In this document: piece after piece, positions 23,203 to 27,086 of the stretch
Layout of the letters: each line of letters starts with the position of its first letter
How positions within the stretch are numbered: the first letter of the stretch is position 1
DNA from: Pseudanabaena sp. PCC 7367
GTDB lineage: Bacteria; Cyanobacteriota; Cyanobacteriia; Pseudanabaenales; Pseudanabaenaceae
DNA length: 64,000 nucleotides
Direction of reading: 5' to 3'
NCBI RefSeq assembly: GCF_000317065.1
Contig: NC_019701.1
Location: 1,240,001-1,304,000 of the forward strand
Program-made: the position numbers and the translations under genes
Notes under the pieces: generated by a model
What the model was told of the DNA's origin: nothing
The model's input: the letters and a program-made list of their open reading frames with translations, nothing else
Databases searched by the model: none

Positions 23203-23397
23203 CTATTCAACCGTATATCCAGCAGAGATGATCGCTGTCCGAATATCAGCTTCAGGATGCTGAGTTTCGATGCTCACTTCCTTAGTAGTTAGATCAGCAG
23301 TAATCTGGGCACTAGAATCAATGGCCACAATTGCATTGGTAATTGTTTCAGCACAGGCTGAGCAAGCCATGTCGGGCACTTTGAGATTTAGATTCAT
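23203..23397 (-). CDS. Heavy-metal-associated (CopZ/Atx1-like) copper chaperone
   Basis: A 64-residue HMA-domain protein with the metal site MACSAC at residues 10-15 and the terminal SAGYTVE typical of these ferredoxin-like folds. It is a probable copper chaperone that hands Cu(I) to the CopA ATPase encoded immediately downstream. Most likely first gene of the copper operon. Unlike Synechocystis Atx1 it is directly linked to its ATPase. Confidence 0.92.
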   Translation of the reverse strand: MNLNLKVPDMACSACAETITNAIVAIDSSAQITADLTTKEVSIETQHPEADIRTAIISAGYTVE

Positions 23398-23471: not shown

Positions 23472-23503
23472 ATTCTAAACCCTCCATCATGCTGGAGAGT
23501 CAA
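23472..23503 (-). promoter_or_regulatory. MerR/CueR-type promoter and operator of the copper operon
   Basis: Read on the minus strand, a -35 box TTGACT (23503-23498) is followed by a 20-base spacer and a -10 box TAGAAT (23477-23472). The spacer contains the dyad CTCCA-N6-TGGAG. A long 19-20 base spacer with a GC-rich dyad between the boxes is the hallmark of MerR-family activators. The overall arrangement closely resembles CueR and related copper or zinc operators. It lies about 75 bases upstream of the copZ-like start codon. No MerR-family gene is in this window. Confidence 0.6.
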
Positions 23504-24364: not shown

Positions 24365-24449
24365 CGGAGAGGGGGGGATTCGAACCCCCGATAGCTTTCA
24401 CTATAACGGTTTTCGAGACCGTCGCATTCAACCACTCTGCCACCTCTCC
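24365..24449 (-). tRNA. tRNA-Ser (anticodon CGA)
   Basis: Minus strand. The acceptor arm GGAGAGG pairs with CCTCTCC, the D arm is GCAGAGTGGTTGAATGC, the anticodon loop is CTCGAAA with anticodon CGA, and a long variable arm (TAGTGAAAGCTA) is typical of serine tRNAs. The T arm is GGGGG-TTCGAAT-CCCCC. A discriminator G follows and CCA is not encoded. It reads the UCG codon. Confidence 0.96.
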
Positions 24450-25151: not shown

Positions 25152-27086
25152 ATGGCCATAGGTGATACCACCACTTTTCTGGTTGAAGAATTTACGGGTG
25201 CAAATACTGCTGCCGAGATTGTTCTTATGGAAGTTGATGGTGGCGTAGAAGTATTTGTTGATGTAGACGAGTCGATCGCCGCAGGTGACATCACTGCAGT
25301 TTATTTTGATGTTGCCAATGATGCCGTCACTGGGTTAAGCGTTTCCGGTAGCGAAGTTACTGGGGTAGTGCTCGATCCTAATAACGTGACTAGCGTCGGC
25401 GGTGGTACTAACCTGCTTGGTGAAGGCACTGCGCCATTTGACGGTGGCGTAGCGATCGGTACTACTGGTGCTGCTCAGGGTGATTTTTATGACGCCACTA
25501 CCTTCTTAATTGAAGGTGCAACCCTGGCTGACTTCTCAGAACAAAGATTTGGCTTGCGCTTGCAAAGCGTCGGTCCAGACATGGAAGACAGTAGCAAGCT
25601 ATCTGGGGGAGTCGGTGTAATAGATCCCGATCCAGATCCCGATCCAGACCCAGATCCCGATCCAGACCCAGATCCCGATCCAGACCCAGATCCCGATCCA
25701 GACCCAGATCCTGATCCAGACCCAGATCCTGATCCAGACCCAGATCCTGATCCAGACCCAGATCCTGATCCAGTGCCAGATCCTGATCTTGATGTCGAAA
25801 AGTTGGTTTCAGTTGATGGTGGCGTTACTTTTGAAGACGCTGATACAATCCAGGATGCGCCAAACATTCAAGATGGCATCGATCCACAATTCAAGTTTGT
25901 GATCACCAACAATGGGACTGTAGACATCGGCTTTATTACCCTGGATGATAACTTTTATGGTGAAATCGCCGAATTATTTGAAGATCAATTCGCTGATTTT
26001 AGTGAAGACTTTGGTCTGCTCCTAGCGCCAGGTGAAAGCAACGACGATTTTGTCTTTGTTGCTCCCTTTGAAAACGTTGTTCATCTTAATACCGCGATCG
26101 TTGCTGGGGACGAGATTATCATCATCGATCCAGACAACGGTGAATTTGATACTGGCGATAGCTTCTTTGATGAAGATCCAGCTTGGTATGTGCCGATCGG
26201 CTTTGATCCTCCCGATCCCGACCCAGATCCAGACCCCGTTGACGAGCTGCCAGTAATTGAGGTAACTAAGGTTGCTGATCAAACCAGCATTCGTGAAGAC
26301 ATCGGTGGTGATGTGGTTTATACGGTCACGATCGCTAATGAAAGTCCGGTTGATGGCGCAGACCTCGATACACTCACCATTACAGAATTGTCGGATGACC
26401 TTTGGATTGATGCCAACGGTAATGGCGTTGCCGAAGCTGGTGAAGTTGTCACCACCGATCTGCTTGCTGATACCGGCGACATTGTGCTCGCTCCCGGTGA
26501 GTCGTTCAGCTTTGACTACAATGTTTCCTATGCTCCTGGCAGCCTCAATCCTTGGGAAGACCCCACCAACACTGCTACCGCAACTGGTGCTGATGAGGAA
26601 GGCAATGTGGTTTCCGATTCTGATACTGCTGTAGTTGACGTAGTTCAAAAGAACCAACGCAGTATTGAAATCGATAATCTTACGGGGGTGGCTAGCGGCG
26701 ATCAGCTCACTGGTAACTTTGAAATTACCAATGCTAGTAGTGATGCCGAGTTCGTATTGTTAGATTCTTTCAATATGACCTTCCAAGAGAAGAATAAAGG
26801 TTGGAATCCAATCTCTCAAAGCACCTCTAGTGAATTCTGGGTAGATGTCAATCCCAATGGTGTCTTTGATGCTGGGCTTGAAACCTTGTTAGTCGATCTC
26901 GATCCTGCTACTGAAATTCTTGAAACTGCGGTTGTATTTGATACCAGCATTGTAATTGGTTATCAATCCACCTTTGAAACTGCGGTTCCTGATCCAGTTA
27001 AGGCAACAGTCCAAACTACGATCGATGGTCGCTTTGATCAATCCACTGGTGAAGTGCATGTATTTGGACACAGTGGCACTTTCTAG
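25152..27086 (+). CDS. Acidic repeat protein with (Asp-Pro)25 linker and DUF11-like domains
   Basis: A 644-residue, strongly acidic protein rich in Asp, Glu, Thr and Val and almost lacking Cys. Residues 1-157 form a beta-rich domain. Twenty-five consecutive Asp-Pro dipeptides follow (bases 25623-25772). Then come two regions resembling DUF11 conserved repeat domains: DLDVEKLVSVDGG...VITNNGTVDIG, and after a short DPDPDPDP second linker, IEVTKVADQTSIREDIGGDVVYTVTIANES. A C-terminal beta domain ends in HVFGHSGTF. There is no N-terminal signal, so if it is a surface protein, as the architecture suggests, it may leave by a C-terminal type I signal. Asp-rich repeats often bind calcium. A terminator follows at 27158-27195. 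Confidence 0.85.
   Translation: MAIGDTTTFLVEEFTGANTAAEIVLMEVDGGVEVFVDVDESIAAGDITAVYFDVANDAVTGLSVSGSEVTGVVLDPNNVTSVGGGTNLLGEGTAPFDGGVAIGTTGAAQGDFYDATTFLIEGATLADFSEQRFGLRLQSVGPDMEDSSKLSGGVGVIDPDPDPDPDPDPDPDPDPDPDPDPDPDPDPDPDPDPDPDPDPDPDPDPDPVPDPDLDVEKLVSVDGGVTFEDADTIQDAPNIQDGIDPQFKFVITNNGTVDIGFITLDDNFYGEIAELFEDQFADFSEDFGLLLAPGESNDDFVFVAPFENVVHLNTAIVAGDEIIIIDPDNGEFDTGDSFFDEDPAWYVPIGFDPPDPDPDPDPVDELPVIEVTKVADQTSIREDIGGDVVYTVTIANESPVDGADLDTLTITELSDDLWIDANGNGVAEAGEVVTTDLLADTGDIVLAPGESFSFDYNVSYAPGSLNPWEDPTNTATATGADEEGNVVSDSDTAVVDVVQKNQRSIEIDNLTGVASGDQLTGNFEITNASSDAEFVLLDSFNMTFQEKNKGWNPISQSTSSEFWVDVNPNGVFDAGLETLLVDLDPATEILETAVVFDTSIVIGYQSTFETAVPDPVKATVQTTIDGRFDQSTGEVHVFGHSGTF
25623..25772 (+). repeat. 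18-base coding repeat, (Asp-Pro)25
   Basis: A direct repeat of about 18 bases of the form GATCCYGATCCAGACCCA runs for 150 bases in frame and encodes 25 Asp-Pro dipeptides. Third-position changes (CCC to CCT) divide it into an older and a newer block. The antisense frame encodes Ser-Gly repeats and is a shadow. Confidence 0.95.

Follow-up and report, generated by a model that had tools for sequence, protein, structure and literature searches.

Among the MerR-family metal sensors, the best point of comparison for a copper-responsive promoter is CueR of Escherichia coli, whose Cue regulon comprises copA and cueO. CueR binds Cu(I) via C112 and C120 (PMC6899792); every MerR protein that senses monovalent ions is said to have Ser77 (PMC11591864). 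Its dyad, ACCTTCCC-(5)-TGGAAGGT, spans 21 bp within a 19-bp spacer (PMC1526738, PMC5045206). To the HMRTR subfamily a 22-bp operator centred 8 bp from the -35 box is assigned; the set of MerR proteins described in the same work includes 22 from cyanobacteria, and a cyanobacterial HMRTR group with contacts of its own was noted (PMC5045206). Because of this precedent, the class of motif considered here is not wholly new. Cyanobacteria are not mentioned in the comparison of CueR and ZntR operators (PMC1526738). A survey of marine bacteria and their copper signalling reported Cyanobacteriota to be without one-component copper regulators and CueR homologues to occur only in Pseudomonadota (PMC10141476). 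In the literature searched, made up mostly of papers readable without subscription, no description of a MerR-type copper regulon in cyanobacteria was found.

The promoter upstream of copZ-copA

The window, that is the whole stretch of 64,000 nucleotides of Pseudanabaena sp. PCC 7367 DNA that was analysed, contains a copper operon preceded by a promoter with an unusually long spacer (Table 1). The sequence of CopA reads a CAAC metal-binding domain, CPC, YN and further motifs, a set which we take to be that of the Cu(I)-type P1B-1 ATPases. The chaperone has CopZ_AFE_1862 as its best NCBIfam model, with a score under the cut-off. Nearby, the window also carries a tRNA gene (24365-24449, minus; Rfam RF00005) and, at 25152-27086 on the plus strand, a gene whose product, of 644 aa, has a long tract of DP(DP)n repeats.

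Table 1. Features of the copper operon, of the regulator gene and of the matching sites in the genome. Positions without prefix are those of the window; mismatches are counted against the genome-wide pattern.
Feature	Position	Strand	Basis
MerR-type activated promoter before copZ-copA, TTGACT-(20)-TAGAAT	23472..23503	minus	sequence; sole window match; conserved consensus; 0 mismatches
-35 hexamer TTGACT	23498..23503	minus	sequence; each base 81-90% conserved relative to dyad
Spacer, 20 bases	23478..23497	minus	sequence
-10 hexamer TAGAAT	23472..23477	minus	sequence; cyanobacterial consensus TAARAT exactly 20 bp from -35
Operator dyad, 22 bp, ACTCTCCAGCA/TGATGGAGGGT	23479..23500	minus	sequence; cyanobacterial consensus ACTCTCCAGTTAACTGGAGAGT
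Putative 5' leader, promoter to copZ start codon	23398..23471	minus	sequence
copZ/atx1-like copper chaperone, 64 aa, CSAC motif	23203..23397	minus	Pfam HMA 8.8e-10
copA P1B-type copper ATPase, 801 aa	20719..23124	minus	TIGR01511 650 bits, cut-off 397
merR gene, 146 aa	C2:1222578-1223018	minus	two Pfam models
Site in merR divergent region	C2:1223033		1 mismatch
Site before oxidase operon	C2:2191607-2191638	minus	0 mismatches
Second tandem site before oxidase operon	C2:2191528-2191559	minus	3 mismatches
Weak site without recognisable metal gene downstream	C2:3250072		3 mismatches

The arrangement reported in the first-pass annotation, with TTGACT and TAGAAT separated by 20 bases on the minus strand and the dyad CTCCA-N6-TGGAG between them, can be read directly in the sequence. 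The dyad core extends further, to ACTCTCCA-N6-TGGAGGGT, thereby forming 8-bp arms with one mismatch, and the promoter lies 74 bp upstream of copZ on the minus strand. Within the window, the composite pattern matches once at up to three mismatches, against 0.04 matches expected from dinucleotide shuffles, and for the dyad by itself the count is one and the expectation 0.14. As in MerR-type promoters, where the spacer measures 19-20 bp, the dyad is centred between -35 and -10 boxes of the sigma-70 type. With a dyad of 22 bp, centred 8 bp from the -35 box, in a spacer of 20 bp, the site departs from the CueR operator (21 bp, centre at 7 bp, 19-bp spacer); the first two values are those that define the HMRTR operators (PMC5045206).

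The candidate regulator and the sites in the genome

The complete genome (4.89 Mb) encodes exactly one MerR-family protein; the Pfam models MerR_1 (1.7e-14) and MerR (6.4e-13) both retrieve its gene. A genome search for such a regulator was what the first-pass annotation had called for, an empty result being taken as refutation. Some 40 kb separate the gene from the site; it lies roughly 17 kb ahead of the first base of the window, in agreement with the earlier statement that the window has no merR-like gene. Compared with the curated NCBIfam models, the protein scores best with CueR (TIGR02044) at 98 bits, under the cut-off of 147.4, and it is also under the curated ZntR cut-off; among its relatives of known structure are CueR, CadR and further regulators of the MerR family. 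At the position of CueR Ser77 the regulator has a cysteine, and its tail contains a single cysteine, in a CPII motif aligned to C120, with no C112 partner. Thus, the residues of CueR (C112, C120 and Ser77) are not all found. In the CueR reference sequence used for this alignment, the Ser77 region is confirmed by the 4wls alignment.

Sites were searched throughout the genome with the pattern TTGACNCTCC-N8-GGAGNGTNTANNNT, a degenerate element, allowing up to three mismatches, and the expectation was taken from the reversed pattern and not from shuffles. Five matches were obtained, against none with the reversed pattern. The match at C2:3250072 was set aside as probably due to chance, as it precedes no recognisable metal gene. 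The four convincing sites lie before the copper chaperone and exporter genes, before a copper-oxidase operon (two sites) and at the regulator locus. The pattern was built from the site in the window and is biased towards it, so that the independent result lies in the remaining three sites, which also answer the earlier suggestion that further copies of the dyad be looked for. The operon with the tandem sites encodes a multicopper oxidase (Cu-oxidase_2/3, with an N terminus of the exported type), a CopB-like ATPase of the CPH type and a DUF411 protein. Hence the predicted targets include a P1B ATPase of the Cu(I) type as well as a multicopper oxidase, and they do so in relatives too.

Some further observations concern the surroundings of these sites. 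At the oxidase locus (L010:6057-7514) the two MerR-type promoters are 79 bp apart, the downstream copy being the weaker. A heavy-metal-type RND efflux pump is encoded near this operon (L010:340-2823, plus); no site was seen before it in the stretch examined, which cuts the start of the pump gene. The gene divergent from merR, with a MerR-type site upstream, encodes a 156-aa protein rich in Asp, Glu and His, secreted or membrane-bound and without Pfam match (L004:9081-9551, plus). It is followed by a gene for a short PepSY_TM-like protein (L004:9732-9995, plus), and a closely similar short PepSY-like open reading frame adjoins the RND pump (L010:2908-3105). The 156-aa protein and the PepSY_TM-like protein may form a copper-handling pair.

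Conservation of the element among cyanobacteria

Allowing up to two mismatches, the pattern is found in 213 of 388 cyanobacterial genomes, compared with about 27 for the reversed pattern. To examine individual genes, the 350 bp upstream of each were searched with a dyad-only anchor, CTCC-N8-GGAG with one mismatch, chosen because a search with the promoter boxes would be circular. This anchor is present upstream of copZ in 40 of 43 homologues, of copA in 50 of 64 and of merR in 61 of 94, the corresponding reversed controls giving 0, 8 and 5. Many of the genomes surveyed are related, so that these counts are not independent of one another. From 133 unique flanked dyads the consensus TTGACT-CTCCAGTTAACTGGAGAGTT-TAARAT emerges, with a spacer of exactly 20 bp. 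Gap lengths other than N8 within the dyad give far fewer matches, except for a gap of 10, which is taken to be the same dyad one base further out.

In the Pseudanabaenaceae, sites stand directly before copA, copZ and merR, and copA commonly adjoins merR. This layout recurs in Nostoc, Calothrix, Scytonema, Fischerella, Chlorogloeopsis, Aphanothece and others, merR-copA neighbourhoods being present in the Nostocales as well. In the Pseudanabaenaceae relatives, the gene that regularly follows copA encodes a small protein (about 160-190 aa) that looks secreted and is an unnamed exporter partner (L102:5702-6229, L103:5682-6242, L109:3231-3749 and others). In genome G065 (3.7 Mb), a gene coding for a protein with a glutaredoxin-like N terminus is divergent from a related merR, which has the motif PPC...VCPLI, and the sites there face both ways (L231:1345-1376, minus; 1423-1454, plus).

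The regulator of Pseudanabaena sp. PCC 7367 branches with two solitary relatives that have neither copA nor another copper gene beside them (support 100/95). This branch is the only part of the tree that was used, the tree having few columns and unsettled support. As nearest relatives without copper neighbours could mean a different function, nine genomes with solitary regulators were searched for the element. At least one site was found in each; sites precede copA in eight genomes (one of them at three mismatches, another 334 bp upstream) and the DUF411-oxidase operon in three. One of the eight also has a site before copZ. This outcome matches the regulon predicted for Pseudanabaena sp. PCC 7367. 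A lack of conservation of the dyad and the long spacer had been named beforehand as an outcome that would refute the reading; both are kept in relatives, before copper genes. Judged from sequence, the element at 23472-23503 is a genuine, widely conserved on-switch of cyanobacterial copper-export genes.

Proposed mechanism and relation to known systems

Very probably, the element serves as operator and promoter for a regulon of copper efflux that the genome's single MerR-family protein controls. By analogy with the MerR family, a dimer of the regulator would sit on the dyad within the over-long 20-bp spacer. Without metal, as for CueR and ZntR, the two boxes would be too far apart and wrongly phased for the polymerase, and the promoter would be kept off. 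Binding of Cu(I) would kink and untwist the DNA, making the -35 and -10 boxes readable on one face, and copZ-copA, the operon of the multicopper oxidase and CopB-type ATPase, and the gene divergent from merR would be switched on. The sequence itself reveals the promoter, the candidate regulator and the target genes, whereas copper as the inducer, binding to the operator and activation are all points that we infer from the MerR family. The metal site is likely formed by the cysteine at the Ser77 position and the tail cysteine (ICPI), perhaps contributed by two different subunits. Among homologues, 89 of 110 have this pair (ICPI or ICPN in the tail) and are without C112; a linear two-cysteine site shared between subunits would be the simplest reading of this ligand set. 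That a phylum-wide cyanobacterial clade of MerR proteins senses Cu(I) in this way, with one cysteine per subunit, is put forward tentatively, the chances being judged somewhat below even.

Since there is a cysteine at the Ser77 position and the second loop cysteine of CueR is missing, Zn, Cd or Hg could be among the inducers. Operator and regulator would then be the same, but the physiological inducer would be divalent (Zn, Cd, Hg, Pb) or a wide range of metals would act, and the copper genes would be part of a general soft-metal response. A cysteine at this position is the residue of the divalent sensors, and mixed or divalent specificity is conceivable because CueR S77C gains a response to divalent ions (PMC11591864); the 22-bp operator and 20-bp spacer resemble those of ZntR (PMC1526738), and the cyanobacterial regulator Slr0701 responds to Hg (PMC6741143). 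However, all four convincing sites are at copper-specific genes or at merR, the sites of the nearest relatives are also at copper genes, and divalent MerR sensors normally have three cysteines (C79, C114 and C123 in CadR; PMC11591864) whereas the clade has one in its tail. On balance a divalent or broad inducer appears unlikely. Binding of the dyad by another kind of regulator (CopY/BlaI, CsoR, ArsR or a response regulator of the CopRS type) is considered very improbable. The genome does encode one clear BlaI/CopY-type protein, and in Synechocystis other copper genes are under CopRS control (PMC4182526), but no CsoR-family protein is encoded in the genome, no CopY-type box (TACANNTGTA) occurs anywhere within the window, the fixed place of the dyad in the 20-bp spacer fits activation by MerR, and throughout the phylum the element goes together with merR genes.

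The two remaining explanations are given hardly any weight. An RNA hairpin, acting as attenuator, terminator or riboswitch, would agree with the folding of the region, which is stronger than that of shuffled sequences (z -2.97), but the dyad lies between the -35 and -10 boxes, upstream of the expected transcript, and both hexamers stand at fixed, conserved distances from it. At the site itself Rfam gives no match, only a nearby tRNA and sub-threshold matches over the site being returned. The RNA reading was rejected on these grounds, the folding score being the trace expected of a DNA dyad. As for chance resemblance, the suspicion that attaches to a single short site read by eye is met by the low expectation in the window, and the phylum-wide conservation at the same genes refutes it.

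The MerR-family, copper-responsive reading of the element would have several consequences. For copper export by CopA and CopZ, many genera would now have a named candidate regulator, and the unusual ligand set makes the rule for mono- versus divalent selectivity of MerR sensors directly testable. A shared two-cysteine site, if real, would go against the rule by which Ser77 and two loop cysteines are required of monovalent sensors, and cyanobacteria would have a cytosolic one-component copper switch that is reportedly missing there; at the sequence level, the present results contradict the survey of marine bacteria (PMC10141476). What is new is a variant sensor together with a predicted phylum-wide copper regulon, the copper response being deduced by analogy, while the type of switch is itself familiar from other bacteria. 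The first-pass annotation had proposed a CueR/MerR-type promoter. Its MerR-family part stands, on the geometry, the single MerR protein and the conserved sites at copper genes, whereas the CueR label does not, given the operator geometry and the sub-threshold CueR score. The element is better classed under a predicted copper activator of the MerR family, cyanobacterial and HMRTR-like in kind, CueR-like in action but not a member of the CueR group.

Like the Cue regulon of E. coli, the system has a MerR-family protein, an over-long spacer that holds the dyad, and a multicopper oxidase and a copper ATPase as its predicted targets; in both, the regulator gene may lie apart and the regulator tail ends in a CPII-type motif. 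It differs from CueR itself not only in the operator but also in the cysteine at position 77, the missing C112 and the lack of the CCHH tail (PMC6899792). The 22-bp palindrome, the 20-bp spacer and the centre 8 bp from the -35 box are common to ZntR and the HMRTR group (PMC5045206), and the ZntR operator, ACTCTGGAGTCGACTCCAGAGT, has the same outer ACTCT/AGAGT (PMC1526738); in contrast to ZntR, the targets here are copper genes and not zntA, and the protein falls short of the ZntR model. Within cyanobacteria, Slr0701 (SynMerR) of Synechocystis 6803 is likewise a MerR protein controlling a distant target via a conserved inverted repeat, but that target is merA (PMC6741143). The comparison with Slr0701 draws on its published description; its published primers gave no match in the loci of likely Synechocystis relatives. 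Finally, the CopRS-CopMRS-CopBAC system of Synechocystis also provides copper-induced efflux; unlike the switch proposed here, it is a two-component system that senses periplasmic copper, and it does not control ctaA, pacS or atx1 (PMC4182526). The MerR-type switch is a putative addition to CopRS, not demonstrably a replacement of it.
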